From: a virus
IMG/VR virus record: IMGVR_UViG_3300024319_000502
Coordinates: 1-64,000 of that record
Reading direction: 5' to 3' (one strand)
Length of the DNA: 64,000 nucleotides
Positions 1,890 to 62,269 of the stretch are shown here, in pieces. The position numbers and the translations under genes are program-made. Under the pieces are notes generated by a model. That model was not told the origin of the DNA, did not search any database, and worked only from the letters and a program-made list of their open reading frames with translations. Each line of letters opens with the position of its first letter. The stretch's first letter is position 1.

Positions 1890-3208
1890 GAGCAAGACAG
1901 TTTATCTTAGAGTACTCCAGAGAAAAAACTCAGCAGGTGCATGGTGAAAAAATCATACAAGCACTACAGAGAGACACACATGCTCGTGCTGATATAGACA
2001 TATGGAACTTACACTCACGTAGCGGTAGTTGGAAAGAACTACATCCTAACGACAAACAAGATTTATTAAACAAAGTGTTTGCTCAGATTGAAATGGGAGA
2101 TCCTACAAAAAACAAAGAATACAGTCAATGGTTGGCACGTATGTATTCAAAACAAATTATTCCATTAGAAGACATTAAGAGTAAAATGAGAGATGCACTA
2201 GAAAAGTATGCGACTCTCAAGTTAAGAAAGAAACTAAAGCCTGAACACAAAGACATTAATCAAATGAAAAAGCCAGTTGACTTGTTAACAGCAATGGCAG
2301 ATTACAGTGAAGAAGACTTAGAAGCACCTGTTACAGACAGAGGTAGCAGTCGTGAAATATATCGTGACAGTGAGATTAGAGTTATAGTGCCTAAAGACAA
2401 AGCGGCGGCTTGTTATTATGGGCAAGGTACTAAATGGTGTACTGCGGCACGTAGTAACAATATGTTTGATCAGTATCACAAGATGGGCGATATGTATATC
2501 ATTATGCCTAATAAACCTAAGTACGAGGGTGAAAAGTATCAGTTCCATTTCCAAAGTGGACAGTTTATGGACGAGCAAGATCGTGAAGTAGATATGTACA
2601 AGGTACTAAAAGTGTATCCAACAATACGTAATATTAAAACAATAACTGATTGGGCTAAACGTAAAATTGTACCAGCACTGATGAGTGATGAAGATTATGC
2701 TGAGTGGAAAAAAGAAACCGATGAGCAGATAGTTAGAAATCGTGTAATGTACGGTGATATGTATACTCTAAGTTTAAATCAACCTGGAACTTCATTAGAC
2801 ACCTGGAAGATTAGTCGTAGTACCATTGACATGTTAGTTGAAAAGAGTATGATGAAAGGCAACAGTTGGGCAAATCTAGCAGGTACAGAATACATAGCCT
2901 ACGGTTGGTTTGACGCAACAAGTGATGATTGTTTAGGTTTAACATATGCTGAACTAGGTGAAGAACCAGAATCAGCAGTTCTTACAGTTAGTAGTGTTGA
3001 TTTTGAAAAGGCTGAGGAATTAAGTAATGAGCCTGAAGTTGAGAAATTAGAAAAATTCTTAAAAGGTATGGTACGAATAGAAGATGAAGCTCAAACGAGT
3101 AGTTTAGCTGAAGAACAGTATGAGAAAGCGATTAACCAACTGTTAGATAGTTATGGTTATCCAATGTCAGTAACAGGATACGTAGGTGGGGAGCCAGAGA
3201 GAGCATAA
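1886..3208 (+). CDS. Putative head-packaged protein with WCTA-motif core (paralogue A)
   Basis: The protein begins MRARQFILE, a capsid-targeting-like tag with a possible cut after Glu9. Its centre (about residues 170-235) carries ACYYGQGT-x-WCTAA-x-SNNMF, then GDMYI, GEKYQ and SGQ-x-MDEQDR. The same core recurs in the gene at 3600. The N-terminal helices (GDPTK, LARMY) are also shared, while the C-terminal 200 residues are not. I recognise the core as a recurrent phage domain of unknown function. The ATG overlaps the SoxYZ stop by four bases and its own stop overlaps the next ATG. Confidence 0.6.
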   Translation: MRARQFILEYSREKTQQVHGEKIIQALQRDTHARADIDIWNLHSRSGSWKELHPNDKQDLLNKVFAQIEMGDPTKNKEYSQWLARMYSKQIIPLEDIKSKMRDALEKYATLKLRKKLKPEHKDINQMKKPVDLLTAMADYSEEDLEAPVTDRGSSREIYRDSEIRVIVPKDKAAACYYGQGTKWCTAARSNNMFDQYHKMGDMYIIMPNKPKYEGEKYQFHFQSGQFMDEQDREVDMYKVLKVYPTIRNIKTITDWAKRKIVPALMSDEDYAEWKKETDEQIVRNRVMYGDMYTLSLNQPGTSLDTWKISRSTIDMLVEKSMMKGNSWANLAGTEYIAYGWFDATSDDCLGLTYAELGEEPESAVLTVSSVDFEKAEELSNEPEVEKLEKFLKGMVRIEDEAQTSSLAEEQYEKAINQLLDSYGYPMSVTGYVGGEPERA

Positions 3209-3603
3209 TGAGATTTTATGAAATAATTAGAGAAGGTGAGGACGATGCTGGCTGGTATCGTGGCATTAGTAAACAAGAAGCTGATAATATTAGACGAGGT
3301 GGATTACCTAAGCCTAGTGCTGTTCCAATACCAATGGACAATGAAGTAATGGATCACTTAGGTATTGATGATGAAGAAGCATGGGAACTACAGAAAGAGC
3401 TTGAAGGACAAGACGTTATTAATGTTACCAGTGATCAACAAAACGCAGAAGGCTATGGCGATGAAGTACTATGGTTTGAACGTCATCTAGTAGATTTAGA
3501 TTTTAAACCCTATGGTGTTATAAGCCTAAGTATGTTAGAAGGGAACCCAGGTAGTTGGGGACTAGTTACACCTTGGGATGAACAAGTAAAGGAAATAAAA
3601 TGA
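3208..3603 (+). CDS. Small ADP-ribosyltransferase-like protein with capsid-targeting-like N-terminus
   Basis: The N-terminus MRFYEIIRE again places Glu at position 9. Downstream, WYRGISKQEADNIRRGG resembles the first strand and helix of ADP-ribosyltransferase folds (R in YRG), and NVTSDQQNAEGYG resembles the later T-S-D-x4-A-x2-Y strand-helix; YGVISLSM would be a following strand. No clear E-x-E is visible, so catalysis is uncertain. T4 packages the ADP-ribosyltransferase Alt by the same kind of tag, which is the reason for this reading. Coupled to both WCTA-core genes by overlaps of one and four bases. Confidence 0.4.
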   Translation: MRFYEIIREGEDDAGWYRGISKQEADNIRRGGLPKPSAVPIPMDNEVMDHLGIDDEEAWELQKELEGQDVINVTSDQQNAEGYGDEVLWFERHLVDLDFKPYGVISLSMLEGNPGSWGLVTPWDEQVKEIK

Positions 3604-4817
3604 GAGCAAGACATTTTATAATAGAATACGATAGAGCCAAAACAGCACAGGCATTTGCCGCCAAGCTAGTTAATACTGCTATGGCTGACAACACTGTTCC
3701 AGGCGCTGTTAGAAAAAATATACAGGACAACTTAACTCCTGTAGAAGCCGCTGAGATGATACTTAAAAATCAAATTGAAGTGGGTGATCCTACTAAACAG
3801 AAAAAGTATACACAGACACTTGCTCGTATGTATGCCAATGGTTTAATCAAATGGGAAGACATAGGTAGTACAATGCGTGACTATTTGGGCAAGTTTCACA
3901 AACTAAATCTTAAAAAGATGATTCCAGCACCACGCAACGATTTTAATCGCTATAGTGATCTAGCTGACTTCTATAGTGTAGTTGACGAATATCCAGACCC
4001 AGATGTTTCAGATCCCAAGTCAAAAGGTGATGCCAAAGAAGTCTACAAGGATGCTAATGTTCGTGTTATAAGACCTGATGATGAGAATGCCGCTTGTTAC
4101 TATGGACAAGGCACACGCTGGTGTACTGCCGCAAAAAGCAATAACATGTTTACTCGTTATCAGAATGACGGTGATATGTATATCTTAATACCTACCAAAG
4201 CCACCCATGACGGTGAGAAATATCAAGTACATCCTGCGTCAGGACAATACATGGACGAACAGGATCGTGACGTAGAAGCAGACGACTTAATACAACGCTT
4301 TGGTGACGACTTTAGAGAGTGGTGGTTAACTGTTGACCCAGACCTAGGTGGACGTATAATATTTTTCCCTAATGAAGATGAACTTAGAAAAGCCTGTGAA
4401 GAAATTAAACAGATGAGTTTAGAATTCTTAGATGAAGTTATGATGGATTGGGAAATGAGTGATGACACATATTATGAGTATCTTCGAGACGAGGGCTATG
4501 TTGATGAAGAAGGTGATTATAAAGATGATTATCCTTCATACACAGAATACAATGATTCTGCTAGTGCGTATTATAGCAATGTTTACGGTGCCCTTGATAT
4601 AACTGTCGATGAAGTGCGTGAGCTAGCTAGAGATATAGAAGAAGAAGATGGACGTAACCAGTACATAGGCGATTTAGAAAATGTGTTTAGTATTAGTGTA
4701 GAAAACGCAATAGATAGACAAGATGGATTACCAACTACAATATACAGACAGATACAGGTAACACTCAAAGACGGTAAAATAACTGTAGAGTACGTTCCAG
4801 AACCAGCAAAAGATTAA
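3600..4817 (+). CDS. Putative head-packaged protein with WCTA-motif core (paralogue B)
   Basis: A paralogue of the gene at 1886: it starts MRARHFIIE, shares the GDPTK and LARMY helices, and repeats ACYYGQGT-x-WCTAA-x-SNNMF at about residues 165-185 followed by GDMYI, GEKYQ and SGQYMDEQDR. Its C-terminal half is different and very acidic (Asp/Glu-rich, several Tyr). The pair probably arose by duplication with C-terminal replacement, as expected for effectors with different targets, but the function is unknown. Start chosen on the tag and on the ATGA overlap with the upstream stop. Confidence 0.6.
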   Translation: MRARHFIIEYDRAKTAQAFAAKLVNTAMADNTVPGAVRKNIQDNLTPVEAAEMILKNQIEVGDPTKQKKYTQTLARMYANGLIKWEDIGSTMRDYLGKFHKLNLKKMIPAPRNDFNRYSDLADFYSVVDEYPDPDVSDPKSKGDAKEVYKDANVRVIRPDDENAACYYGQGTRWCTAAKSNNMFTRYQNDGDMYILIPTKATHDGEKYQVHPASGQYMDEQDRDVEADDLIQRFGDDFREWWLTVDPDLGGRIIFFPNEDELRKACEEIKQMSLEFLDEVMMDWEMSDDTYYEYLRDEGYVDEEGDYKDDYPSYTEYNDSASAYYSNVYGALDITVDEVRELARDIEEEDGRNQYIGDLENVFSISVENAIDRQDGLPTTIYRQIQVTLKDGKITVEYVPEPAKD

Positions 4818-16618: not shown

Positions 16619-18157
16619 ATGGCAAAGAGAGTAGAACACGACGACTTAACAGCAAAACAGAATGACTATGCAGTATTTTTACCAGCATTAAGTTCTTTTT
16701 ATGCAACATTTATAGGTAAACAAAGAGTAGCTAACGACTATGTTGATCCTCTACGTATGCCTAAGAACTTACCAGATATGGAACATTTAAACTGGTTAAA
16801 CAGTCAGGAAGGTGTGTTTACTTATAAATGGTCGCTATACTCTGCAGGACATGCTAACTTAGATGTTACTGTAGATGCACCCAAAGAAGATATGGTTAGA
16901 AAGAGAGAGCCAGGTGCTTGGGTATTAGGCGATAGTGGTGGCTTTCAGATTGGTAAAGGTGTATGGGAAGGTGATTGGAAAAATCCTAACTGTCCTAAAG
17001 CTAAAAAGAAACGTGAGCAGGTGCTTAAATGGATGGACACTTACATGGACTATGGTATGATATTAGATATACCAGCCTGGGTATGTCGTTCACCAGAAGG
17101 ACGTAAAGCTACAAACATTAATAGCTATGAAGAAGCTGTGCAAGGAACTTATATCAACAATGATTACTTTATTAATAATCGTACAGGTGCATGTAAGTTC
17201 TTAAATGTATTACAAGGTGAGAATCACACAGAAGCTGAAGATTGGTATCAACGCATGAAGAAATACTGTGACCCAACACAGTATCCAGACAATCATTTCA
17301 ATGGTTGGTCAATGGGTGGGCAAAACATGTGTGATATACATTTAATCTTACATAGACTAGTTACTATCATACATGATGGCTTACTTAAAGAAGGTGTTCA
17401 AGATTGGATGCACTTCCTAGGCACATCAAAGCTGGAGTGGGCTACACTATTAACTGACATACAGCGTAGTATTAGAAAGCATCATAATCCTAAATTTACA
17501 ATATCATTTGATTGTGCATCACCGTTCCTTGCTACAGCAAATGGGCAGATATACACTGATGTTGAAACACCAGACAGAGGCAAATGGACTTATAGAATGC
17601 AATCAACTGCTGATGACAAGAAGTATTCAACAGATACTAGACAGTTTAGTCAAGGTGTACTAGCAGATGGATTTCATACTACATTTAACGATTCACCAAT
17701 ATCACGCAACTTAGAGATGAAAGATATTTGTATATACAAGCCAGGTGACCTAAATAAGAATGGTAAAGAAGGTAAAACATCATGGGATAGTTTTAGTTAC
17801 GCACTTATGATGGGACACAATGTTTGGCAACATCTTAATGCTGTACAAGAAGCTAATAGGCAGTATGATGCAGGACACTATCCTAAAATGTTAATACAAG
17901 AAACATTTGATACAGTAACATTTAGAGATGTATGTGAAGCTATATTTTCAGCAGATACTAAAGAAGAATCAATGGCTATTATTGAGCATTATAGTAAGTT
18001 TTGGATGTCAATTATTGGCACTAGAGGAGCAACAGGTAAGAAGACTGTCAACGCAGGTACTATGTTTAATAATTTGTTTGATGTGTCAGAAGAAGAAGTA
18101 GTAGAAGATACATTAGACGAAGCAAAGTTAGATAAACTTGAAATGGAGGAATCATGA
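16619..18157 (+). CDS. dpdA: DpdA/TGT-family DNA guanine transglycosylase
   Basis: 512 residues. WVLGDSGGFQ (D105) is the catalytic-base block of tRNA-guanine transglycosylases and ISFDCASPF-x3-NGQ (D298) matches FDC-x-x-P with the nucleophile Asp. FNGWSMGGQ near 228-235 fits the base-binding loop, LGTSK near 268 the following strand. Phage members of this family (DpdA) exchange guanine in DNA for a 7-deazaguanine. FolE, QueD and QueE encoded nearby would supply the base. The acidic tail (about 490-512) is extra. The TGT zinc Cys cluster is not seen. It follows the clamp with no gap. Confidence 0.8.
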   Translation: MAKRVEHDDLTAKQNDYAVFLPALSSFYATFIGKQRVANDYVDPLRMPKNLPDMEHLNWLNSQEGVFTYKWSLYSAGHANLDVTVDAPKEDMVRKREPGAWVLGDSGGFQIGKGVWEGDWKNPNCPKAKKKREQVLKWMDTYMDYGMILDIPAWVCRSPEGRKATNINSYEEAVQGTYINNDYFINNRTGACKFLNVLQGENHTEAEDWYQRMKKYCDPTQYPDNHFNGWSMGGQNMCDIHLILHRLVTIIHDGLLKEGVQDWMHFLGTSKLEWATLLTDIQRSIRKHHNPKFTISFDCASPFLATANGQIYTDVETPDRGKWTYRMQSTADDKKYSTDTRQFSQGVLADGFHTTFNDSPISRNLEMKDICIYKPGDLNKNGKEGKTSWDSFSYALMMGHNVWQHLNAVQEANRQYDAGHYPKMLIQETFDTVTFRDVCEAIFSADTKEESMAIIEHYSKFWMSIIGTRGATGKKTVNAGTMFNNLFDVSEEEVVEDTLDEAKLDKLEMEES

Positions 18158-24947: not shown

Positions 24948-25303
24948 GTTTCTTCCCAAACATTGAATTATTTGATAGACTAGCTATTGCAGAAGTTAAA
25001 CTAGCAAGAATTGGAGACAACCAAGAAGAAGTTGTGTGGTACAGGCAACGGATAAACGAAAAAGAATTTAATCAAGTATATACTCACTTCCAAGAGCTTA
25101 AAGAAATACACGATACTATTTGGGACTTAGAAGGATTACTTAAATCAGGTCGAGAACAAGAACTAGGTTTAGAAGAAATTGGTCGACGTGCTATTGAGAT
25201 ACGTGACTGGAATAACAAGCGTGTTGCATTAAAAAATAAAATAGCTGATATACTAGCAACGGATAACGTCAGAGAAATTAAAAAAGATCATTTAAGTGAA
25301 TAA
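24944..25303 (+). CDS. DUF6165-like protein
   Basis: 119 residues starting with GTG on an ATGA-like overlap with the radical SAM gene. LFDRLAIAEVKLARIG, IHDTIWDLEGLL and a final N-x-K-R-V-A-L-K-N-K-I helix match the layout of DUF6165, which usually occurs inside polysaccharide or LPS loci. All helical. Role unknown. Confidence 0.5.
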   Translation: MSFFPNIELFDRLAIAEVKLARIGDNQEEVVWYRQRINEKEFNQVYTHFQELKEIHDTIWDLEGLLKSGREQELGLEEIGRRAIEIRDWNNKRVALKNKIADILATDNVREIKKDHLSE

Positions 25304-25892
25304 TCCATTTGACTACATAACAGAGTTTGAAGAAGCACTGGCAAGTTATACAGGTGCTAGGTACTCTGTAATGACTGATTGTTGCACACACGCACTCGAA
25401 CTATCGTTCTTAGCAACAGGTTTCAAACGAACACAGTTTACTCCTTACACTTATATTTCAATACCAATGATGTTACATAAAATTGGTGTTAAGTTTGAGT
25501 ATAATGATCAAGATAATTGGTTGGGAGAATACTACTTTTGGAACACTAACATCTGGGATTCAGCAAGAAAGCTAGCAGAAGGAATGTATAAACCAGGACA
25601 GATACAGTGTCTAAGTTTTGGTCACGATAAACCATTAACTATTGGTCGTGGTGGTGCTATCCTACTAGATGATTATGAATTGTATAAGAAGCTTAAATTA
25701 ATGTGCTATGATGGTAGAGACTTATCAATACAACCTTGGTCAAGTCAAGAACAATTTGAACTAGGTTATCACTATAAGCCTGTGCCTGAAGAAGCAGAAC
25801 GTGCATTAACATTATTAGGCAGTCATGATCAAATGCCTAAATACAAACAGTATCCTAACTTAAAAAATATTAAAATTAAATTGGATACATGA
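25296..25892 (+). CDS. Short DegT/DnrJ/EryC1-type protein
   Basis: 198 residues against about 370 for the family. It keeps the N-terminal ALASYTGARYSVMTDCCTHALEL block and the PLP-site region CLSFGHDKPLTIGRGGAIL, where Lys of HDKPL would hold the cofactor, and RD and LGYHYK near the end. The usual small C-terminal domain is almost entirely missing. It may be a minimal aminotransferase or a degenerated partner. The start (GTG 25296) overlaps the previous gene by eight bases. Compare the full-length family member at 54935. Confidence 0.6.
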   Translation: MNNPFDYITEFEEALASYTGARYSVMTDCCTHALELSFLATGFKRTQFTPYTYISIPMMLHKIGVKFEYNDQDNWLGEYYFWNTNIWDSARKLAEGMYKPGQIQCLSFGHDKPLTIGRGGAILLDDYELYKKLKLMCYDGRDLSIQPWSSQEQFELGYHYKPVPEEAERALTLLGSHDQMPKYKQYPNLKNIKIKLDT

Positions 25893-25907
25893 TTTGGTAA
25901 AATACTA

Positions 25908-25936
25908 TTGCAAACTTGATAAAACTTTGCTATACT
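25908..25936 (+). promoter_or_regulatory. Sigma70-type promoter of folE
   Basis: TTGCAA (25908-25913), 17-base spacer, TATACT (25931-25936), followed by TTTTAAG as in two other promoters of the window. The 48-base leader contains a hairpin ACGAC/GTCGT and a CGGAG SD before ATG 25985. Confidence 0.6.
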
Positions 25937-25984
25937 TATTTTAAGTAAACGACATCCTCGTCGTCAATAACTCGGAGAAAAAAC

Positions 25985-26725
25985 ATGTCAATAGAAAATC
26001 ACATTGATTGGAATGAAAAGCAAGACCCAGAAAAAGCATCAGTCAGTAAAGAAGTAAAACGTAGACTTGAAGCAAATGGAATACGTTATTGGGCTAATGA
26101 TAACATCAGTGAAGTGCTGTTACCAGGTGACAAAGAAGCACTTATCGAAGAAGCAGTTCCTGCTTTTGAAGAAGTATTACAAAAACTTTTAATAGATACA
26201 AAAACAGATCCAAATTCAATGGATACTGCAAGACGTATGGCTAAGATGTATATCAATGAGATAATGGCTGGACGTTATGAAGCAATGCCTAATCCTAGTG
26301 CGTTTCCAAACTATGTTGGCGAAGGTGGTTACGAAGGTATGTTGGTTGTACGTAGTGAGCTAACAAGTTTGTGTTCTCATCATCATCAGACAGTAAAAGG
26401 TGTAGCATACATTGGTATCATTGCAGGACCTAAACTATTAGGTTTAAGTAAGTACACTCGTATCGCTCAGTGGTGTGCTACAAGAGGTACACTACAAGAA
26501 GAACTTAATGTTATGATTGCTGATGCAATTCAAAAAGAAACAGGTAGTGAACACGTTGGTGTGTATGTACAAGCAACACACGGGTGTTGTGAAAATAGAG
26601 GTATTAAAGCACATTCAAGTCTAACACAAACTACAGTATTACGTGGTGCGTTTAGAAATGATCCAGCTACTAAGAAAGAGTTCATAGACAATGTTAAACT
26701 ACAACAAGAGTTTGCCCAAAAGTAG
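25985..26725 (+). CDS. folE: GTP cyclohydrolase I
   Basis: 246 residues. LTSLCSHHHQTVKGVAYIGI (126-145) supplies Cys130 and the His pair 132-133, and HGCCENRGI near 199-207 the second zinc Cys, as in FolE. GLSKYTRIAQWCATRGTLQEEL is the family signature. It opens GTP to dihydroneopterin triphosphate, the first step towards 7-deazaguanines as well as folates. With QueD, QueE and the DpdA-like enzyme in this window, DNA modification is the likely purpose. The N-terminal 55 residues are extended but ordinary for the family. Confidence 0.9.
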   Translation: MSIENHIDWNEKQDPEKASVSKEVKRRLEANGIRYWANDNISEVLLPGDKEALIEEAVPAFEEVLQKLLIDTKTDPNSMDTARRMAKMYINEIMAGRYEAMPNPSAFPNYVGEGGYEGMLVVRSELTSLCSHHHQTVKGVAYIGIIAGPKLLGLSKYTRIAQWCATRGTLQEELNVMIADAIQKETGSEHVGVYVQATHGCCENRGIKAHSSLTQTTVLRGAFRNDPATKKEFIDNVKLQQEFAQK

Positions 26726-26726
26726 G

Positions 26727-26755
26727 TTGACCAAAAAATCCGAATTTAGTATAAT
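26727..26755 (+). promoter_or_regulatory. TTGACC-class sigma70 promoter
   Basis: TTGACC (26727-26732), 17-base spacer, TATAAT (26750-26755), two bases after the folE stop. One of four promoters sharing TTGACCAwwAAATC and the same spacing. It drives the subtilisin autotransporter gene. Confidence 0.75.
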
Positions 26756-26786
26756 ACTAACAAGGCTTAAAATTTAAGGAGAAGTT

Positions 26787-29726
26787 ATGTTGTTCTTAAG
26801 ATCGATCTTAGTTGTAGTTATGTTGTTTGTGTCAACCTCTGTATATGCAGGTCGATGGACGGTATTAGATACCTGGTCAACTACAGACACTCCATATGTA
26901 CATACTAGTGACGCAACCTACGAATATGTCGTTGATTCTGTTACAGATTCTTACATAGATACGGACGGAAATACTATTGAACGTATATCAAACGTAAGAT
27001 ATCGAGTCGAAACAAGAACCATAACTACTTCCATTACACATAGAGACAGAGTACGTGAACAAAATGCTATGGGTAGAGTACGAGAGCGTGGACTAGACGT
27101 ATACGCTACAGTAACTACTGAAACAGATGTTCAACGCAATCATATGGGAACTTCTGTAGTATCTGAAACTATTACTGCTGTTTCTCCTAGTGTAGAAGAA
27201 GCACGTCTAGCAGAAGAGGCTCGTTTAGCAGAAGAAGCCAGACTTGCTGAAGTTGCAAGATTAGAAGAAGTAGCAAGGTTAGAAGCATTAGAAGTTGCTA
27301 GGTTAGCTGAAGAAGCTCGACTCGCTGAAATTGCAAGATTAGAAGCACTTGAGGCAGAAAGGCTAGCAGAAGAAGCACGCCTTGCAGAGGTAGCCAGATT
27401 AGCAGAAGAAGCACGCCTTGCGGAAGAGGCTCGTTTAGCTGAAGAGGCTAGACTGTTAGCCATTGCTGAGGAAGAAGCAAGGTTAGCCGAGGTAGCTAGA
27501 TTAGAAGCATTAGCAGAAGAAGAAAGGCTAGCAGAAGAAGCCAGGTTGTTAGCTATTGCAGAAGAAGAAGCTAGAGTTGCTGAAGAAGAAAGATTGGCCG
27601 CATTAGCAGAGGAAGAAAGATTAGCTGAAGAGGCACGTTTATTAGCGGTAGCTGAAGAAGAAGCCAGGTTAGCTGAGGAGGCACGTTTAGCAGAAGAAGC
27701 CAGACTTGCTGAAGAGTCCGAAACAGTTGCAACATTAGACTTTGGTGCTAATAGTATATACTTAGGTACTCCAACTGAAATGCCTAGTTCGGATCCAACA
27801 TACTATCAAGGACTTGATAACTTTAAAAACTTTAACTCAGCCGTAGGACAAGACTGGGCATTGTCAAGAGGATGGACAGGTAAAGGATCTACAATTGGTA
27901 TATTAGATAGTGGTATTGATCTTGATCATCCAGAGCTTGCAGGTAAAGTTACATTTCAATGGGAACCAGGTTATGACAATGGCATTGAAGACTCAGTAGG
28001 TCATGGTAGTCATGTAGCATCAATTGCGGCAGGTAACATGGGTGGCGAAGTGTTAGGTATAGCACCTGATGCTAATCTAGCTATTGTTAAAATTACTGAT
28101 TCATGGTCAGCTTCAATGAGCTTTGCTCGTCAGGGTATTGTGCAACTTAAAAACAATACTGACGCAGTAGTAGCTAACTTATCAGCAAACACTAGTTATC
28201 ATAACTCATATAAAAGCACAGTAACAGATAGAGGCAATGGTGTGTTTACCAGCAACCATGAATACTATGGTGGAACTAATTATTATAATATGGAAACACC
28301 AGATGCTTGGGGCAGTGCTATGTCAGGTAGTGAAATAGTATTAACTATATCAGCAGGTAATCAATCAAATGGTTATGTACAAAATCCTGCGACATTTGCG
28401 GTAGCAACAGACAGTTCAGGTAACTTGGTTATGGACGGTCGTGCTATTGTAGTAGGTGCTTGGAATACTGCTACCGAAACTATTGATGGTGCTAAGTCAG
28501 GGCACATGTGTAAAAACTACAGTGGCAGTGAATGTTTAGACACTTATAGAACTTCAGACTTTTATATATTGGCACCAGGTAATAATATAGTAGGTGCTGA
28601 TAAAGACGGCGGTTATAGATCAATGTCGGGTACATCACAAGCGGCTCCTGTGGTTGCTGGTGCAGTAGCAGTTATACATCAAATGTGGCCATACATGAAA
28701 GGCGAGAACATTGTTCAAGTGTTGTTAGATACTGCTGATAAAACTATAACAGGATACAATGTTAATACACACGGACAAGGACTGTTAGATCTTAAACGTG
28801 CTACAGAACCAATTGGTGATTTAGGTATATCAATGACAGGTAGAACAGGAACTACTACTCCTCTATCGGGTGGTATTGCAGTTGCTGGTATTAGTTCTGT
28901 TACAGAGTTGTCAAGCGTTAAAGTAGTAGATGAAATAGGTCGTGACTATACAGTTGATTTAAGTTCTGCAACTATTGATCTTAAAGGTAGCACTAATAAT
29001 TTAATTCCAGTATATCAATTAGATCACTCAGTAGGCAGTGCATGGTCAAGTAAATTTGTTGGAGGAGAAGGTGCAAACTATCGAGGTTGGTATCTTAACA
29101 GTTACGAACAAGAAGTAGGCAACATAAATCAAGAAACATTTAGTGCAATGTCATTTGGATTTGATAGTTCAGCACTAGCTGTAAGAGATATATACACTGG
29201 AGAAATTAAGGATCCAAGTGACTGGACAGAAAGATTTACTTACACAAGAAGTTACGGTTCACCTTTTATGAGCTTTAGTGGTATGTGGGGACAAGTTAAC
29301 TCAACAGACACATTTGAGTATTCAACAATGTATAAGCCAAACAATTGGTATGGACAAGTAGGTGTTATGTATTCTATAACAGACTTTGATAGCGGACTAG
29401 TTGAGGACGTTGATAACATTACATCAATGTATGGTGTTGCTGGTTGGGCTAACGATAATGTAAACTTATATGTAGGTGTTAAGCCTACTGTGATCGATGG
29501 TGAGTTAGATTTAAGAGTACCCACATCAGTTAGTAGTACAGGAGTTATGTCGTATACTAATGCTAAAGCAGATATGACAGGTGACCCAGTAACGTATGTA
29601 GGTGCACAATATAACTTAACTAATTCAGAAGATCAATTTGGTAATGTACATAACTTAAGAGTTAACGGTGCAGTTGATCAATATGGTGACGCACTAGTTG
29701 GTGCATTTTATGAGTTTACATTCTAA
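26787..29726 (+). CDS. Subtilisin (S8) serine protease autotransporter with long EARLAE-repeat stalk
   Basis: 979 residues. Signal peptide 1-22 (ends VYA). Residues about 135-312 are a six-residue repeat of the type EEARLA, predicted as a long charged helix. The S8 catalytic triad is complete: D374 in ILDSGID, H406 in GHGSHVA, S617 in GTSQAAP, with oxyanion Asn in SAGNQ. The last 280 residues are strand-rich with alternating aromatics and end in TF, as in outer-membrane autotransporter barrels. It should be exported by the host and displayed or secreted. Unusual in a phage. GGAG SD and a consensus promoter precede it. Confidence 0.8.
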   Translation: MLFLRSILVVVMLFVSTSVYAGRWTVLDTWSTTDTPYVHTSDATYEYVVDSVTDSYIDTDGNTIERISNVRYRVETRTITTSITHRDRVREQNAMGRVRERGLDVYATVTTETDVQRNHMGTSVVSETITAVSPSVEEARLAEEARLAEEARLAEVARLEEVARLEALEVARLAEEARLAEIARLEALEAERLAEEARLAEVARLAEEARLAEEARLAEEARLLAIAEEEARLAEVARLEALAEEERLAEEARLLAIAEEEARVAEEERLAALAEEERLAEEARLLAVAEEEARLAEEARLAEEARLAEESETVATLDFGANSIYLGTPTEMPSSDPTYYQGLDNFKNFNSAVGQDWALSRGWTGKGSTIGILDSGIDLDHPELAGKVTFQWEPGYDNGIEDSVGHGSHVASIAAGNMGGEVLGIAPDANLAIVKITDSWSASMSFARQGIVQLKNNTDAVVANLSANTSYHNSYKSTVTDRGNGVFTSNHEYYGGTNYYNMETPDAWGSAMSGSEIVLTISAGNQSNGYVQNPATFAVATDSSGNLVMDGRAIVVGAWNTATETIDGAKSGHMCKNYSGSECLDTYRTSDFYILAPGNNIVGADKDGGYRSMSGTSQAAPVVAGAVAVIHQMWPYMKGENIVQVLLDTADKTITGYNVNTHGQGLLDLKRATEPIGDLGISMTGRTGTTTPLSGGIAVAGISSVTELSSVKVVDEIGRDYTVDLSSATIDLKGSTNNLIPVYQLDHSVGSAWSSKFVGGEGANYRGWYLNSYEQEVGNINQETFSAMSFGFDSSALAVRDIYTGEIKDPSDWTERFTYTRSYGSPFMSFSGMWGQVNSTDTFEYSTMYKPNNWYGQVGVMYSITDFDSGLVEDVDNITSMYGVAGWANDNVNLYVGVKPTVIDGELDLRVPTSVSSTGVMSYTNAKADMTGDPVTYVGAQYNLTNSEDQFGNVHNLRVNGAVDQYGDALVGAFYEFTF
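27190..27720 (+). repeat. Degenerate 18-bp coding repeat (EARLAE hexads)
   Basis: About 30 copies of a hexad based on E-E-A-R-L-A. Arg, Leu and Ala codons vary freely between copies (CGT, CGC, AGA, AGG, CTA, TTA), so the DNA repeat is old while the protein repeat is maintained. Some units carry two or three extra residues (LEAL, LLAIAEEE). Confidence 0.85.
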
Positions 29727-30181
29727 TGATATTTGATAAAGTAAAACAACTTAAAGACCAAGGGTTAAGAATAGGAATAACATTCTCAACCTTTGACCTA
29801 TTACACGCAGGGCATGTTGCTATGTTAAGTGAGTGCAAGAATCATTGTGATTATCTGATAGCTGGCTTACAAACAGATCCTACACTAGACAGAGCAAACA
29901 AAAACAGTCCTATACAGTCAATAGTAGAAAGACAGATACAGATAGGCTGTAATCGTTTCGTTGATGAAATTGTGGTATACCAAACGGAAAAAGATTTAGA
30001 AGATATCTTGCTTTCAATGCCAATAGATGTTAGAATATTAGGTGTAGAGTATGAGAACAAGGACTTTACTGGTAAAGATATTTGTAACAAAAGAGGAATT
30101 GAATTAGTATACAATGGCAGAGACCATTCATTTAGTTCAAGTTCATTACGTAAACGAGTAGCAGAAGCGGAGAAAAAATAA
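29726..30181 (+). CDS. Cytidylyltransferase-like nucleotidyltransferase
   Basis: 151 residues. GITFSTFDLLHAGHVAML carries the H-x-G-H motif of the TagD/RfaE-type family and FSSSSLRKRV near the C-terminus the S-S-S-x-x-R-x-R motif. It would join a nucleotide to a sugar or polyol phosphate (CDP-glycerol or ADP-heptose type). One-base overlap with the autotransporter stop. Fits the surface-sugar theme. Confidence 0.75.
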   Translation: MIFDKVKQLKDQGLRIGITFSTFDLLHAGHVAMLSECKNHCDYLIAGLQTDPTLDRANKNSPIQSIVERQIQIGCNRFVDEIVVYQTEKDLEDILLSMPIDVRILGVEYENKDFTGKDICNKRGIELVYNGRDHSFSSSSLRKRVAEAEKK

Positions 30182-30342
30182 TGGCATATGATGCAAAAGC
30201 AGTAAAGATACCAACAGAATTAAAAGTAATGGCGGCAAGTTTTCCTACTAAAGCAGAAGGCAAGGCTTTTATTAAAAGATTTGTTGCAATTAAAGAAGGT
30301 GAGTATAATAATTACCAAGCAAAGAAAAGAAGTGGTAAGTAA
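30181..30342 (+). CDS. 53-residue basic protein, unknown
   Basis: ATG overlaps the previous stop (AATAATGG). Basic, Lys-rich with a central KAFIKRFVAIKEGEYN segment. No recognised motif. Confidence 0.5.
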   Translation: MAYDAKAVKIPTELKVMAASFPTKAEGKAFIKRFVAIKEGEYNNYQAKKRSGK

Positions 30343-30351
30343 TATACTCAA

Positions 30352-30417
30352 AGACGCCTTAAGACAGTCATCCGTCTCAAAATATTCTGCCTGTCATCAA
30401 ACTTACTCACAGGAGAC
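30352..30417 (+). promoter_or_regulatory. Possible structured leader of queD (pseudoknot topology)
   Basis: AGACG (30352-30356) can pair with CGTCT (30373-30377), and GACAG (30363-30367) with CTGTC (30391-30395), giving an interleaved H-type order. GTCTC (30374-30378) could instead pair with GAGAC (30413-30417) of the SD AGGAGAC. The helices are short (5 bp), so this is a candidate only. Confidence 0.25.
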
Positions 30418-30422
30418 AAGAG

Positions 30423-30872
30423 ATGGCAACATACTACTCAACTAAAACATACGGTCACAACATTGGCCTTTCAGCCTGCTTTAGGCAACCTAACGCTGAT
30501 CATTCACATTGTCATTTACTACATGGCTACAGTTTACAATTTAAATTTACGTTTGCATGTAGTGAACTAGATAATAAAAACTGGGCAGTAGACTTTGGTG
30601 GACTTAAACAAGTTAAGAAATGGTTAGAAGATCACTTTGATCATAAAACAGCTATTGACAAAGATGATCCACACCTAGATAAGTTTAAAGAACTTGAAGA
30701 AATGGATCTAGCAGAAATTGTAGTCATGGATGGTGTTGGTGCAGAAAAGTTTGCTGAACACGCATTTATGTTTGCAGACAAATTAATTAGAGAACAAACA
30801 AACGATCGTTGTTGGGTGCATTCAGTAGAGTGTGCGGAACACGGTGCTAACTCAGCAATCTACGAGGGGTAA
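30423..30872 (+). CDS. queD: QueD-like 6-carboxytetrahydropterin synthase
   Basis: 149 residues. The zinc/catalytic block reads DHSHCHLLHGYSL (26-38) with Cys30 as likely catalytic Cys; the second His of the usual HGH is Tyr36. VDFGGLK (56-62) is the pterin-site motif, FDHKTAI the catalytic His strand and SVECAEHGANSA the closing segment with Glu. It converts dihydroneopterin triphosphate, made by FolE, to carboxytetrahydropterin for QueE. AGGAG SD. Many alpha-proteobacterial and phage members share the HGY form to my knowledge, so activity is still likely. Confidence 0.8.
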   Translation: MATYYSTKTYGHNIGLSACFRQPNADHSHCHLLHGYSLQFKFTFACSELDNKNWAVDFGGLKQVKKWLEDHFDHKTAIDKDDPHLDKFKELEEMDLAEIVVMDGVGAEKFAEHAFMFADKLIREQTNDRCWVHSVECAEHGANSAIYEG

Positions 30873-30874
30873 TA

Positions 30875-30964
30875 ATGGAAACAGAAGCAATAATTGGATT
30901 AATAATTATGGTAGCGATAGTGGCTATTGCAACTGCGGTATCATTAAAGGATAAAGATGACTAA
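30875..30964 (+). CDS. 29-residue membrane microprotein
   Basis: One hydrophobic helix (AIIGLIIMVAIVAIATAVSL) with a charged end KDKDD. The ATG follows the queD stop by two bases and the end overlaps the next gene by eight. No SD other than GAGGGG at a suitable distance upstream. Function unknown. Confidence 0.4.
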   Translation: METEAIIGLIIMVAIVAIATAVSLKDKDD

Positions 30965-31418
30965 GAAAGCATATTATACATGGTCGCAAGTTGAAGAAAT
31001 GACACAGGACATTATTAGACAACTGCACGTGGATCAACAGAATATTGACTGTGTAGTTGGGCTCACAAGGGGCGGTTTAACGCCCGCTGTGCTGGTTTCA
31101 CAGTATCTAGACATACCAATGCACGCCGTAAAGGTAAGCTTACGTGATCACGTAGGAGCAGAGGATCTTGAAAAGATCAAAGAAGATATTGGTATCGATA
31201 AAGGCAAACGAGTGTTAGTGATAGATGATATCAATGATACTGGTGCTACTATATCAGCTATTAAAGATGTATGGGGGACTGACACAGTGACTTATGCAGT
31301 ATTAATTAACAATGAAGCTAGTACAGAAGATGTTGATTACTCAAGCATGGACATTAACAAACACGAAGAAAATGTTTGGCAAGTGTTTCCTTGGGAGGAC
31401 TGGTGGCAATGGAGTTAG
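30957..31418 (+). CDS. Type I phosphoribosyltransferase
   Basis: 153 residues. VLVIDDINDTGATI (about 83-96) is the PRPP-binding motif. CVVGLTRGGLTPAVLVSQYL is the upstream strand-helix typical of xanthine/hypoxanthine (Gpt-like) members. It could salvage a purine or a deazapurine. It lies between queD and a glycan block. All key Asp/Thr residues of the PRPP loop are present. Confidence 0.8.
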   Translation: MTKKAYYTWSQVEEMTQDIIRQLHVDQQNIDCVVGLTRGGLTPAVLVSQYLDIPMHAVKVSLRDHVGAEDLEKIKEDIGIDKGKRVLVIDDINDTGATISAIKDVWGTDTVTYAVLINNEASTEDVDYSSMDINKHEENVWQVFPWEDWWQWS

Positions 31419-33265: not shown

Positions 33266-34132
33266 TTGAAAAAACTTAAAGTAGCAGAGATATTTTACAG
33301 TTTACAAGGTGAAGGTAAATGGGCTGGTGTTCCTAGTGTATTCTTAAGAACGTTTGGCTGTAACTTTCAATGTAGAGGGTTTGGTTTACCTAGAGGTGAG
33401 CAAACTACACAACCTGAGGAAATAGCCGAAGCAGTTGCAGAGTTTAAAACATATGAAGAACTTCCGTTGGCAAATACTGGTTGTGATAGTTATGCGTCAT
33501 GGCATCCAAAGTTTAAGCATTTATCTCCAGTATTAGAAACTGGTGCAGTTCGAGAGCGTATGGAAGATCTTATTCCTCACAATACTTGGACACAAGACAA
33601 CTATGAAGATGTACACTTAGTCATTACAGGTGGCGAACCGTTATTAGGTTGGCAACGTAGCTATCCTGAACTAATTGCATCATGTATGGATAACGGCTTA
33701 CAAAACGTTACGTTTGAAACTAATGGTACACAACCATTGCATGAAGATTTTAAAACATTCTTTAAAACAGTATGGCACGAAGAACGTGGATATCAAAAGT
33801 TAACGTTTTCAGTGAGTGCTAAACTACCTGATTCAGGTGAGAAGTGGGAAGAAGCTATACTTCCAAATGTGGTCACAGAATACGAAAATTACGGATATAC
33901 ATACTTAAAGTTTGTAGTAGCAACTGAAGAGGATGTTAAGGATGTTGATCGTGCAGTAAAAGAATATAGATCAGCAGGATTCAAAGGACCAATATACTTG
34001 ATGCCTATCGGTGGACTACCTGAAGACTATCATTTAAATACAGCACAAGTTGCTGAGTTAGCTATGGCAAGAGGTTATAGATATTCACCTAGACTGCAAG
34101 TTGACATATGGAGAAACGCTTGGGGAACTTAA
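33266..34132 (+). CDS. queE: QueE-like 7-carboxy-7-deazaguanine synthase with displaced third cluster Cys
   Basis: 288 residues, TTG start. EIFYSLQGEGKWAGVPSVFLRTFGC is the QueE N-terminus. The cluster site reads C32-x3-C36, but the third Cys of C-x3-C-x2-C is Phe39; the expected C-D-S-Y-A-S-W block appears only at C73 after a 36-residue insert. ITGGEPLL is the SAM motif and NVTFETNGT the next strand. QueE makes 7-carboxy-7-deazaguanine from carboxytetrahydropterin. The insertion is likely a family variant that still ligates a 4Fe-4S cluster. No QueC is seen in the window, so the base might stay at the carboxy stage. Confidence 0.8.
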   Translation: MKKLKVAEIFYSLQGEGKWAGVPSVFLRTFGCNFQCRGFGLPRGEQTTQPEEIAEAVAEFKTYEELPLANTGCDSYASWHPKFKHLSPVLETGAVRERMEDLIPHNTWTQDNYEDVHLVITGGEPLLGWQRSYPELIASCMDNGLQNVTFETNGTQPLHEDFKTFFKTVWHEERGYQKLTFSVSAKLPDSGEKWEEAILPNVVTEYENYGYTYLKFVVATEEDVKDVDRAVKEYRSAGFKGPIYLMPIGGLPEDYHLNTAQVAELAMARGYRYSPRLQVDIWRNAWGT

Positions 34133-34872
34133 TATCTAATTTGCTTGACGATCCAGGGAAAGTTAGTTGGCAGTGGGCAGTTAGTATTATATCAATTGTA
34201 TGTTTAATTCTAGGTAAATTTGCCTGGATTGACTTGTTATGGATTCTTATAGCACATTACGTTATATATCTAGTAGGCTTAGAAATTGGATACCATAAAC
34301 TACTAGCTCATAAGGCATTTAAAACTAATAGTTGGATTAAAAACATATTAGCATTTATAGGTAATATAACATGCCATCCACCTGTCCTACAATGGGTAAC
34401 TATACACAGATTGCATCATGCAACCAGTGACGGGTTAGGTGATCCACATTCTCCCTGGGTTCCAAAAAGAGGTCTGCTATCATATCTATTTTTTACCAGA
34501 TGGGAACCTATGGTTAGAGAGTACGAGTTTAAAAATGATAAATTTTTAATATGGTTAACTAATCATCAAGGACTATGCTTATGGTTTACAACAGCTATAT
34601 TATTATCGTTTTTTGATCTAACAACTGTGTTAGTTTGGTTTGCTATCCCAAGTATAATATCACCTTACTGTTTAGGACTAGCTAACTATGTTACACACCA
34701 AGGAAAACATAACGGATACGATCATGCACAGAATTGGTATTGGATAGAACCTATAGCACCAGGTATGGGCTTTCATGGTAATCATCACGATAAACCAGGT
34801 ACTTGGACTTTAGCAAAAAAATATTGGTGGATTGACTTATCAAGCATTATTGTAAAATTAATAAAAAGGTAG
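34108..34872 (+). CDS. Membrane fatty acid (acyl-CoA/acyl-lipid) desaturase
   Basis: 254 residues with at least four membrane helices. Three His boxes are complete: HKLLAH, HRLHH and HGNHH, as in delta-9-type desaturases. It would insert double bonds in host acyl chains using O2. It overlaps queE by 25 bases in another frame; the domain begins soon after ATG 34108, and the translation has no later ATG before the first helix. A second desaturase lies at 38945. Confidence 0.8.
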   Translation: MEKRLGNLISNLLDDPGKVSWQWAVSIISIVCLILGKFAWIDLLWILIAHYVIYLVGLEIGYHKLLAHKAFKTNSWIKNILAFIGNITCHPPVLQWVTIHRLHHATSDGLGDPHSPWVPKRGLLSYLFFTRWEPMVREYEFKNDKFLIWLTNHQGLCLWFTTAILLSFFDLTTVLVWFAIPSIISPYCLGLANYVTHQGKHNGYDHAQNWYWIEPIAPGMGFHGNHHDKPGTWTLAKKYWWIDLSSIIVKLIKR

Positions 34873-34878
34873 TATACT

Positions 34879-34998
34879 ATGTTTAAATGGTTAACAGAGT
34901 TTTGGGAAGATTATATACTAATGAAAGATATAGAACTGTTAGACGAAGCGTATATGGAACTTAAGATAGACGAAAAGATGCATCATGGAGAATTTTAA
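34879..34998 (+). CDS. 39-residue acidic microprotein
   Basis: Short amphipathic helices with WLTEFWEDYIL and ELLDEAYMELK. Its TAATG overlap with the next gene supports translation. A TATACT precedes it but no -35. Unknown. Confidence 0.4.
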   Translation: MFKWLTEFWEDYILMKDIELLDEAYMELKIDEKMHHGEF

Positions 34999-35357
34999 TG
35001 TTTGATAAAATTAAAAAAGTATTTAAAAAAGAACCAGTTAAAAAGACAAAAGGCAAAAAGAAAACTGATATGGATATTGCCACAGAAAAAGGTGAGCCAT
35101 ATGTTAATGTGATTAGCATGGATATTAATCCAGAACAAATTAACGACGGTGCCTTTGAACTAGAGTTTAATGACTTGTTTCTTGCTAAGTTAATTAAGGC
35201 AGGATATCAAGAAAAGAAAGATGAAACTGATATACAAATAGTTGATCGTTGGTTCCAAACTATTTGTCGTAATGTTGCTCAAGAAACATACGAGCAGTAT
35301 CAAGCAGATCCAGACAACAGGAAAGACTTAGGCGGCGGTTATACGGAGGTTAAATAA
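34998..35357 (+). CDS. Hypothetical protein with basic N-terminus, 119 aa
   Basis: A Lys-rich first 25 residues followed by an alpha/beta body with acidic patches (FELEFNDLFLAKL, DRWFQTICRNVAQETYEQY). No motif known to me. One-base overlaps with both neighbours. Confidence 0.5.
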   Translation: MFDKIKKVFKKEPVKKTKGKKKTDMDIATEKGEPYVNVISMDINPEQINDGAFELEFNDLFLAKLIKAGYQEKKDETDIQIVDRWFQTICRNVAQETYEQYQADPDNRKDLGGGYTEVK

Positions 35358-60085: not shown

Positions 60086-60797
60086 TATAAGTGTATACCT
60101 GATCAAAGAATCTTTTTCTCTTAGGTCCTTTAAAATCAACAAACACTGCCTTGGTATCAAACGCCGGACCACTTTTACTAACTCCAGTTATTCCGTTAGT
60201 GTTGTAATCAAATAACTTTATTCGTAAACCGTTCCACTCGTATATTCTATCTTTATTTTTTATTTCAGGTAGTATGCCTTCTTCCTCAAGTAAGCGTTGT
60301 ATAGCATACTGGTCGCCGCCCCATCGTTTCATCTTAGAACTTAGCTGTTCAAACACTTTTACTCTTGCATTAAAGAACTCGTCAATAAATCGATGATTGT
60401 GTAAATCACTGTCAACCAGTACTACTGTGTTATTAACTTTTTCTTTGACTAACATTATACCGAGATCAAATGTACCGTCAAACATTTCATCAAGATCACC
60501 ATTTATTAAATGATCGCATCCACACATTACATAACGTCCTGGATTTTTCCATACGGCATGAGCATTTGCTACACAAACATTTTCCATTAATGAATTATTA
60601 GGTAAGTCTATTACTAGATACTGATCAAACTTTTCTTCAAAAGATGCAGTATCGTATTCTGTAATTAATGTAAAGCTATCACTGTTAAACTGTTTATATG
60701 TTTTATGAAGTTGTAGTACAGCACTACGATAATCAAATCCTTCAATTTGAGAAATTTTATCTTTGACGTCTTGATAAAAACAGATTACGTCAGCCAT
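60054..60797 (-). CDS. GT-A-like protein of the minus-strand sugar operon
   Basis: 247 residues. FTLITEYDT, LVIDLPNNSLMENVCVANAHAVW and GRYVMCGCDHLINGDLDEMF follow a GT8/GT-A layout in which C-x-C-D-H replaces D-x-D; the C-terminus has GDQYAI and a basic tail. ATG overlaps the stop of the carbamoyltransferase by one base. The missing D-x-D makes activity uncertain. Confidence 0.5.
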   Translation of the reverse strand: MADVICFYQDVKDKISQIEGFDYRSAVLQLHKTYKQFNSDSFTLITEYDTASFEEKFDQYLVIDLPNNSLMENVCVANAHAVWKNPGRYVMCGCDHLINGDLDEMFDGTFDLGIMLVKEKVNNTVVLVDSDLHNHRFIDEFFNARVKVFEQLSSKMKRWGGDQYAIQRLLEEEGILPEIKNKDRIYEWNGLRIKLFDYNTNGITGVSKSGPAFDTKAVFVDFKGPKRKRFFDQVYTYITLRGSRSKS

Positions 60798-62269
60798 TAG
60801 CTACATACCTTAACACCATAAAGTTTTTCAAAACGATCAGCGTCGCTTCGATCATTGACCATTGGCTCGCCTCTGATATTTAAACTTGTATTAACTAACA
60901 TAGGACAGCCAGTCATAACCATCCATTTTTCTAATAGCTGTCTTATACCACTTACTGAATCTTTAGGTACTGTCTGTACACGACTAGTTCCGTCTTTGTG
61001 TATAATTGCAGGAAAGTCTTTAGGGTGCTTACAACGAGCAACTGTTTGCATATATGGTGATGTTGGAAATCCTGTAGGCATTTCAAAATACTCATTGACG
61101 TATTCTTCTAATATAACAGGCGCAAACGGTCTAAACTTTTGTCTACGTTTAATTTCGTTCACTTGATCTTTTATTTCTGCACCTCTTGGATCAGCTAGTA
61201 ATGATCTATTACCTAAAGCACGAGGACCAAACTCAGCACGCCCACTTGCTACACCAACTATCTTCTTATTCATTAGTTCATCTAATAGTGCATTAACAGG
61301 ATACTCACCTTCGATGTTTGTACCTAAGTAAGGATGTTGCCAGTTAACTTGTTTTCCGTATGCTAGAGACGCGGCACCTAATGCTGACCCACAATCACCC
61401 GGGTTAGGCATAATCCAAATATTGTCAAAGTATGCACCTAGATGTTCATTGGCTAAACAGTTAAGAGCAACTCCACCCATGTAAACTAAATTATTGCTAC
61501 GTCCTATTTGTTTTGCACGAGCCATTACTTCATGTAATAATGTTTCTAAAGCGTTCTGTGCTGATGCCGCAATTTCAAAATCTGTCATTGAAGGCCTGTA
61601 ATCATCACAGCCAAGATGTAGATTATTTTTAAATGTAAGTTCTGCTTTGTCTGATACAAAGTCATCTATCATCTTAAACTTGGGCATTGCATATGCGGCC
61701 ATTCCCATTAAAATATATTCTTCATCTAACGGTCTTAGTCCTGCACGTTTAGTCATTGCTGAATAAAACAATCCTATTGAATGCGGGTAACGCTTACTCC
61801 ATAATTTTTTATATTTGGCATAACCTCGGCTATCATACTCAGCATGCCATATAGTAACTGTTTCAAATTCTCCAATAGCGTCTATAACTACTACTGTTGC
61901 ATCTTGATATGGTGATGTTTGGAAGCCTGCGGCCGCATGTGACTTATGATGATTGTTTGTTTGTATTGGTGCATGTATAGGCAAGTCAGGTAACTGTTGC
62001 TTTAATATATTTTTAACTGTGAGTTTGTCCCACTCAATACCTTGCCCAGTTCTTAACTGTCTTAACTGTTTTAACCAAGGACGTTCATAATAGCTTATAC
62101 TGTCAATGTTATTATAATCAAATTCTTTAAATTGATCTATATGAAGTAGGCTGTCATTCTTATTTTTAGAATAACGCTCACTGTGACTAGCTAATACTAT
62201 ATCACCTTTATTATCAATAACAGCAATTCCAGCATCGTGGAATCCTGAACTAATCCCCAAATAACTCAT
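60797..62269 (-). CDS. NodU/CmcH-family O-carbamoyltransferase
   Basis: 490 residues. YLGISSGFHDAGIAVID is the YrdC-associated ASKHA start, NNHHKSHAAAGF the metal-binding His block, VVVIDAIGEFET the phosphate loop, MGGVALNCLANEHL and PNPGDCGSALGAA the adenosine site, and GRAEFGPRALGNRSLLADPR the C-terminal domain signature. It transfers a carbamoyl group from carbamoyl phosphate to a hydroxyl of a sugar or similar compound. In a sugar-rich region the acceptor is probably a glycan. Coupled to the DUF1289 gene by a 20-base overlap. Confidence 0.9.
   Translation of the reverse strand: MSYLGISSGFHDAGIAVIDNKGDIVLASHSERYSKNKNDSLLHIDQFKEFDYNNIDSISYYERPWLKQLRQLRTGQGIEWDKLTVKNILKQQLPDLPIHAPIQTNNHHKSHAAAGFQTSPYQDATVVVIDAIGEFETVTIWHAEYDSRGYAKYKKLWSKRYPHSIGLFYSAMTKRAGLRPLDEEYILMGMAAYAMPKFKMIDDFVSDKAELTFKNNLHLGCDDYRPSMTDFEIAASAQNALETLLHEVMARAKQIGRSNNLVYMGGVALNCLANEHLGAYFDNIWIMPNPGDCGSALGAASLAYGKQVNWQHPYLGTNIEGEYPVNALLDELMNKKIVGVASGRAEFGPRALGNRSLLADPRGAEIKDQVNEIKRRQKFRPFAPVILEEYVNEYFEMPTGFPTSPYMQTVARCKHPKDFPAIIHKDGTSRVQTVPKDSVSGIRQLLEKWMVMTGCPMLVNTSLNIRGEPMVNDRSDADRFEKLYGVKVCS

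Follow-up and report, generated by a model that had tools for sequence, protein, structure and literature searches.

A gene in a 64,000-nucleotide (nt) stretch of viral DNA (hereafter the window; positions 1 to 64,000 of IMGVR_UViG_3300024319_000502, a 66,041-base IMG/VR virus record classed linear and denoted G000) encodes a 979-residue protein that is probably an exported subtilisin, carried by the phage as cargo and displayed on the surface of the infected cell by autotransport. As far as the matches listed in our searches show, the family of surface proteases to which it belongs is apparently new to the literature, and those matches include no description of phage autotransporters or of phage S8 surface proteases. 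Other phage proteins are placed in the outer membrane of the host, among them Lom and the Eib trimeric autotransporters; these are small barrels or trimeric adhesins of temperate phages, not proteases.

The gene (26787–29726, plus strand, with an ATG start) occupies exactly the coordinates given in an earlier, sequence-only reading of the window. The encoded protein begins with a predicted Sec signal peptide (approximately residues 1–21; 26787–26849), recognized from the hydrophobic N terminus and with its cleavage site, VYA/G, placed by eye. The signal is followed by a variable N-terminal domain (residues 22–135; 26850–27191), delimited by comparison with the relative L029, and by a charged EARLAE-like repeat (residues 136–311; 27192–27719), delimited by repeat and periodicity analysis and possibly forming a single α-helix. 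The peptidase S8 domain (residues 365–663; 27879–28775) precedes a C-terminal domain (residues 674–979; 28806–29723), defined by the family alignment A2, AlphaFold2 and VIA-align. The C-terminal domain consists of a linker with a motif of the SSVxVVDxxxRDFxVDLS type and a predicted outer-membrane β-barrel that starts near residue 768 and ends in GAFYEFTF. All of these features lie on the plus strand.

By its fold, Asp-His-Ser triad and oxyanion-hole Asn, the protein is a member of peptidase family S8. Residues 365–663 match the Pfam Peptidase_S8 family (PF00082, E = 4.3e-33), and a model of the two domains (S8 and C-terminal) aligns with subtilisin 1ndu in VIA-align with a Z score of 35.6. The family alignment confirmed the complete triad named by the sequence-only reading, Asp374 (codon 27906–27908), His406 (28002–28004) and Ser617 (28635–28637), and added the oxyanion-hole Asn525 (28359–28361). 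These four residues are identical in all 75 informative members (76 aligned rows, of which L090 ends before the Ser); the rows used here, and in the export, C-terminus and charged-stretch counts below, include two copies from Hylemonella metagenome-assembled genomes (MAGs). In the single pair formed by the 979-residue protein and L025, the ratio of non-synonymous to synonymous substitution rates (dN/dS) is 0.137 for the S8 part and 0.154 for the C-terminal part, so both parts are, on this sequence comparison, under purifying selection. The invariant triad and these low ratios together point to a working protease kept by selection. In the comparison with L029, residues 1–135 are only 27% identical, whereas the protease part is 88% identical.

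Export appears to be a general property of the family. By a simple hydrophobicity criterion, the N terminus of the 979-residue protein qualifies as a signal peptide, as the sequence-only reading had supposed. A crude scan of the family covered 69 distinct members with a complete 5′ end and recognized a lipobox in 39 and a signal peptide in 27 (66 in total), with 3 unclear. The lipobox class derives from a crude regular expression, with L045 probably misclassed; no lipobox was seen in the 979-residue protein itself. At the other end, the final residue is Phe in 50 and aromatic in 53 of the 66 distinct closed members, compared with 50 and 140 of 1675 neighbouring open reading frames (ORFs), and an amphipathic last-strand pattern is found in 52/66 members against 39/1675 of those ORFs, a control set that still contains the 979-residue protein itself and its truncated relatives L029, L090, L091 and L096. 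Of the 13 non-aromatic C termini, four have Leu as the last residue and one finishes in Phe-Lys, while in the other eight a tail extends past the barrel. These tailed members (L016, L072, L076, L078, L093, L095, L098 and L100) are mostly lipobox proteins from a different gene context, and several of them end in MFVPIxx-like motifs.

Because Foldseek and VIA-align searches with the two-domain model returned mostly subtilisins, the C-terminal barrel was modelled separately. The AlphaFold2 model of residues 674–979, built from a 30-sequence alignment, has a predicted local distance difference test score (pLDDT) of 86.2 and a predicted template modelling score (pTM) of 0.83, and DSSP assigns it 11–12 long strands with two short helices ahead of the first. 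The 50 matches listed by VIA-align are outer-membrane or designed β-barrels, except for two type 9 translocon chains for which the chain identity is absent from the titles. The highest Z score belongs to KdgM (13.1), and the NalP translocator 1uyn (11.2; 183 residues, 4.0 Å) and the autotransporter barrels of EspP (10.8), AaaA (9.8) and BrkA (9.6) are also among the matches. Two predicted structures from uncultured Caudovirales phages in BFVD, A0A6J5L9S5 and A0A6J5TBB6, match the barrel model with TMq values of 0.78 and 0.60; both carry generic names, the latter Peptidase S8/S53, and both are probably members of the same phage family. An outer-membrane β-barrel at the C terminus is therefore well supported by modelling, which bears out the barrel-like C terminus proposed from the sequence. 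The barrel may act as the translocator, as suggested by the overall architecture and by homology to bacterial S8 proteins matched by the C-terminal profile A2. Between protease and barrel the model has a linker and no β-helix, with model confidence low in part.

We compared this architecture with those of known subtilisin autotransporters. In PMC9289746 and PMC9977779, NalP of Neisseria and SphB1 of Bordetella are described as lipidated subtilisin autotransporters that cleave other surface proteins. The phage protein resembles them in having a Sec signal (with a lipobox in many relatives), an S8 protease and a C-terminal outer-membrane barrel similar to that of NalP. Unlike them, it is phage-borne, its protease lies behind a long variable N-terminal part, no β-helix is seen in its partly low-confidence model, and the Pfam Autotransporter family (PF03797) is unmatched. 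Ssp of Serratia and EprS of Pseudomonas, as described in the same sources, carry the protease first and then a β-helix. They share the S8 domain with the phage protein (8e7f is among the Foldseek matches, and the EprS profile matches the S8 part), whereas the protease of the phage protein is not first and the EprS profile scores only 54 bits against a cut-off of 1700. The bacterial proteins L105 and L207, which are matched by A2, resemble the phage protein in that an S8 domain is followed by a related C-terminal domain. Of the traits of classical (type Va) autotransporters, the N-terminal Sec signal (by the crude scan) and a predicted C-terminal barrel ending in an aromatic strand are present, and a translocator match to PF03797 is absent. 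Moreover, PMC9289746 places the protease of subtilisin-like autotransporters (group 15) at the N terminus of the passenger, and here the S8 domain starts at residue 365. Because both the PF03797 match and an N-terminal protease are lacking, we do not claim formal membership of that family, and suggest from the sequence features that the protein works like a subtilisin-like autotransporter.

The charged repeat was analysed in the same protein. The sequence-only reading had counted about 30 EARLAE-like hexads; the repeat is indeed present, and it consists of 25 R-[L/V] units in residues 136–311, in which 17 of 24 spacings are six residues and the remaining seven are breaks of 8–10 residues. The 11 exact EARLAE hexads are encoded by 10 different DNA versions, and pairs of hexads differ on average at 3.7 third codon positions, 1.05 first positions and no second positions. 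With 10 spellings for 11 hexads and changes confined to codon positions 3 and 1, the amino-acid pattern is evidently old and selected, and the scrambled codons and protein-level selection proposed earlier are real. A heptad coiled coil was rejected, in keeping with the poor heptad fit already noted from the sequence: no hydrophobic moment appears at 98–103 degrees (its value at 100 degrees is 0.006), and a hydrophobic stripe is missing. Oppositely charged residues are paired regularly (25 E-R pairs at i+3, 4 E-R at i+4, 18 R-E at i+3 and 13 R-E at i+4). The missing stripe and the regular E-R pairs at i+3 suggest a lone salt-bridged helix, approximately 26 nm long and possibly of the ER/K type (single α-helix), rather than a coiled coil. 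The proposed resemblance to the periplasm-spanning helices of TolA is not supported. The TolA profile reaches 12.8 bits, far under its cut-off of 59.45, and the repeat precedes the barrel, on its passenger side. Of 75 other members, some of them truncated at the 5′ end, no more than three (L028, L029 and L095) have a comparable charged stretch above the threshold. The stretches of L028 and L095 differ in sequence, and that of L070 is marginally under the threshold. Given this rarity among the sequences of relatives, the stalk is an optional spacer.

The gene belongs to a sizeable phage family. A scan of viral contigs with the 979-residue protein gave 18 loci, of which 15 were true relatives, and a scan of IMG/VR with alignment A1 gave 119 relatives, of which 80 were kept. 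The viral matches L017–L019, which rest on low-complexity repeat only, were dropped, and the genome matches L022–L024, remote S8 proteases, were set aside. By tblastn, 50,697 phage records yielded S8-level matches only (6 records with the 979-residue protein and 31 with the L050 protein), and none covered 80% of the query. One record matched by the L050 protein, the UNVERIFIED entry for Pseudomonas phage Y5 (OQ572407.1, 51162–60154; L115), encodes a 1013-residue bacterial-type S8 autotransporter among chromosomal-looking neighbours and is probably host DNA at this locus. Phage marker genes were sought in 17 hand-chosen records, namely the two Hylemonella MAGs and 15 virus records that were for the most part the longest ones. 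Six of the 17 contain gp23 and five a PF17289 terminase; the six S8-bearing contigs with a T4-type gp23 span 197–353 kb. The window itself carries a T4-type family B DNA polymerase (phrog_262, E = 1.5e-193), the best matches of which in the phage collection, Atu_ph07 and Phosso (470–490 kb), are about 48% identical, and it also has genes for a 5′–3′ exonuclease, FolE, a QueD-like protein and a radical-SAM protein that we read as QueE-like from a Pfam match below the cut-off. We assign the S8 gene to large T4-like phages; an outer-membrane barrel, if correctly predicted, means that their hosts are Gram-negative. The sequence-only reading had left room for a recent assembly chimera lacking phage homologues; the 119 relatives, and a locus that is syntenic across phage contigs, speak against this.

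Within these phages, the S8 gene occupies a recurrent slot. In the window it lies between FolE (GTP cyclohydrolase I; 25985–26725, plus strand; PF01227, E = 1.3e-36) and a QueD/PTPS-like gene (30423–30872, plus strand; PF01242, E = 1.9e-15). Duplicates were removed by hand before the gene-order, promoter and exported-neighbour counts. Among the resulting 67 phage loci, FolE is upstream of the S8 gene in all 42 that have FolE, a QueE-like gene is downstream in all 51 that have one, and, of the 27 with both FolE and QueD, 26 have the S8 gene between the two. Eight S8 loci contain none of the five marker genes tested; in the first tree they group with L103 in a single clade, and they represent another gene context. 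The slot is not always filled in this way. A gene of the conserved block (34998–35357) has at least 598 relatives, and the S8 gene was found in none of the 80 loci kept from them, including none of 21 with at least 9 kb of upstream sequence. In 11 of these 21, FolE and QueD are both present, either adjacent or separated by other genes, and the downstream part of the block is seen in most. This sample shows that carriers are a subset, and not how large the subset is. We therefore rejected the idea that the S8 gene is core to the phage lineage; from its absence in related loci and the empty or differently filled slot, it is accessory cargo in a subset of related phages.

The gene also has a promoter-like site of its own. 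A σ70-type sequence, TTGACC-N17-TATAAT (26727–26755, plus strand; 11 of 12 consensus positions), lies 31 nt ahead of the ATG, and a ribosome-binding-site-like AAGGAG was read from the sequence at 26776–26781 (plus strand). Sites with at most one mismatch occur within 110 nt upstream of 28 of 60 family genes. Among shuffles the share is 0.6%, and among 1348 other ORFs it is 6.9%, although the latter are mechanical ORFs, many probably internal to operons, which makes the contrast look larger. In 25 of the 28, the −10 box is 25–38 nt before the start. The site in the window is the best of 11 promoter-like sites in 25000–31000. The T4 late promoter TATAAATA has no exact site in 65 regions upstream of S8 genes, and its one-mismatch sites there are no commoner than those of scrambled motifs. 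The σ70-like site and the accessory slot favour a host-directed cargo role over a virion role.

Relatives of the protein are also found in bacteria. Profile A2 matches 9 of 398 Pseudomonadota genomes, 6 of 399 genomes of the family of Hylemonella (Hylemonella being counted in both) and 40 of 385 genomes of the class of G331; with Hylemonella excepted, all ten ORFs matched in the Pseudomonadota sample are S8 proteases. A first, quick tree separates the members, as a single clade, from most of the bacterial S8 proteins sampled. A second tree, with 35 of the first tree's 63 phage rows, 2 Hylemonella and 12 bacterial sequences and several long branches, groups the 35 phage rows, the two Hylemonella MAG copies and a chromosomal copy of G990 in one clade (100/100), with Hylemonella beside L045 (100/100) and G990 beside L086 and L097 (100/98). 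Eleven of the 12 bacterial S8 proteins fall outside the phage clade, and L207 and the two Hylemonella copies fall inside. The bacterial copies in the clade lie at 7440–9995 of L020, 1980–4538 of L021 and 9138–11318 of L211 (Hylemonella MAGs, and a 2.75 Mb contig of G990). The Hylemonella copies are flanked by ABC transporters, an amidase and QueG; the G990 copy, read by eye, lies between a stretch with gcv, ggt and pan genes and one with recombinase/integrase-like ORFs. The nesting of bacterial copies in the phage clade suggests phage-to-bacterium transfer, for which two such moves are the simplest account of the tree; repeated moves from bacterium to phage may be an alternative.

On the basis of these features, we propose the following mechanism. 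Host RNA polymerase would read the S8 gene soon after infection from its own σ70-like promoter, and the host Sec system would export the product by its signal peptide or, in many relatives, as a lipoprotein. The host β-barrel assembly machinery (BAM) would then recognize the C-terminal aromatic strand and fold the predicted barrel into the outer membrane. The N-terminal domain, any helical stalk and the protease would then emerge on the cell surface. There the protease, positioned near the membrane, could shave or mature host surface proteins.

What such a protease would do for the phage can be ranked by analogy: anti-superinfection shaving comes first, then nutrient release, then maturation of other proteins. 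As the leading function we tentatively propose that phage receptors are removed or masked, so that the infected cell and its debris adsorb no more phage. Surface shaving is favoured because of the analogy to NalP and SphB1, the accessory nature of the gene, its frequent own promoter-like site and its fast-changing tip. Nutrient scavenging, in which the protease would digest extracellular or surface protein to feed the infected cell, as other phage uptake genes do, seems a lesser prospect. The 316 kb phage contig L139, which lacks the S8 gene, encodes between FolE and QueD an exported substrate-binding protein that resembles the BMP family (3094–4203), and in L086 (1973–5503) BMP-like, NMT1-like and ABC-permease-like ORFs lie approximately 3–7 kb upstream of the S8 gene (all read by eye). 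However, a membrane-anchored protease would lose most of its peptide products, no peptide importer was recognized among the window genes scanned, with most common neighbour clusters left unannotated, and the fast-varying N-terminal domain fits a surface target better than bulk digestion. We consider it unlikely that the enzyme mainly serves to mature other exported proteins, whether of phage or host origin, at the cell surface, in the manner of the lipidated NalP and SphB1 (PMC9289746 and PMC9977779). The lipobox found by the crude expression in 39/69 members is consistent with such a role, as are related exported proteins of approximately 190 residues encoded about 280 nt after the S8 gene (L055, 12200–12769; L058, 3406–3987; L070, 4110–4691), possibly a partner or substrate in that subclade, and, about 7 kb from the S8 gene, a 178-residue signal-peptide protein ending in Phe that resembles a small outer-membrane barrel (L048, 19067–19600). 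By contrast, a crude test found an exported-looking or hydrophobic same-strand ORF within 2 kb in only 17 of the 67 loci, no single family of exported neighbours recurs widely, and the 979-residue protein has no lipobox.

Two further explanations place the protein outside this range. A lysis or release factor that weakens the outer membrane or frees virions late in infection would suit an outer-membrane location, yet it is improbable given the σ70-like site, the accessory gene and the scanned neighbours (FolE, QueD, radical-SAM and exonuclease), among which no lysis gene was recognized. The other explanation, that the protein is a virion component whose signal is cryptic or that host DNA was joined to a phage contig during assembly, is largely refuted: the missing phage markers of the window record and the host-like Y5 record would fit, whereas the identical locus and gene order recur in dozens of contigs, several with gp23, export signals are found in 66/69 members, and the family makes up a single clade, distinct from most of the bacterial S8 proteins sampled.

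Several observations weigh against an early-expressed, autotransported cargo protease. The porin KdgM tops the VIA-align list, where scores similar to that of NalP are also reached by porins and FadL-type channels; the fold search therefore reveals a barrel without singling out a translocator. Foldseek found no match to the barrel model in the PDB at E ≤ 0.001; there are no autotransporter barrels among the 50 Foldseek matches listed, which is not in itself evidence against one. PF03797 matches none of 30 C-terminal domains (E 0.1), and it is likewise unmatched in ten bacterial S8 relatives (E 0.01). Early expression by the host polymerase is the natural reading, which we infer from promoter-like sites only, and such sites are fewer in 25000–31000 than in shuffles (11 versus a mean of 19.4). 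Sites like TATAAATA are also absent upstream of gp23 in all six cases (one with only 64 nt of upstream sequence), which makes the late-promoter contrast uninformative. The BMP-like gene in the FolE–QueD slot of L139 fits nutrient uptake equally well, and the window's own record, a 66 kb fragment, has a match to neither gp23 nor PF17289.

Other genes of these loci were also noted. A hydrophobic protein of approximately 207 residues, encoded upstream of the S8 gene at 7411–8031 of L052 and with relatives in 9 loci, resembles by eye a queuosine-precursor or vitamin transporter. The window encodes a fatty acid desaturase (34108–34872; PF00487, E = 7.4e-09), a Nol-like carbamoyltransferase (60797–62269, minus strand; phrog_1601, E = 1.3e-96) and two more exported-looking proteins (482–796 and 1155–1889), one with a lipobox-like LQTGC. 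A 512-residue protein (16619–18157) with a weak Ig-like match only is common to 32 loci upstream of the block.

In its broadest form, our proposal is that large lytic phages operate a type V surface display of their own, in which an early, exchangeable cargo subtilisin, with a fast-changing tip that tracks host targets, coats the occupied cell and bars rival phages from it, and that phages are also a source of bacterial surface proteases; as a whole, this remains speculative. If surface display holds true, it would give a large phage a concrete way to alter the outside of the cell that it occupies. Whereas work on autotransporter proteases has treated them as bacterial factors, the sizeable family described here has the appearance of phage cargo: its members share a slot, frequent promoter-like sites and a strictly conserved active site, and the tree suggests that surface-protease genes have passed from phage to bacterium.

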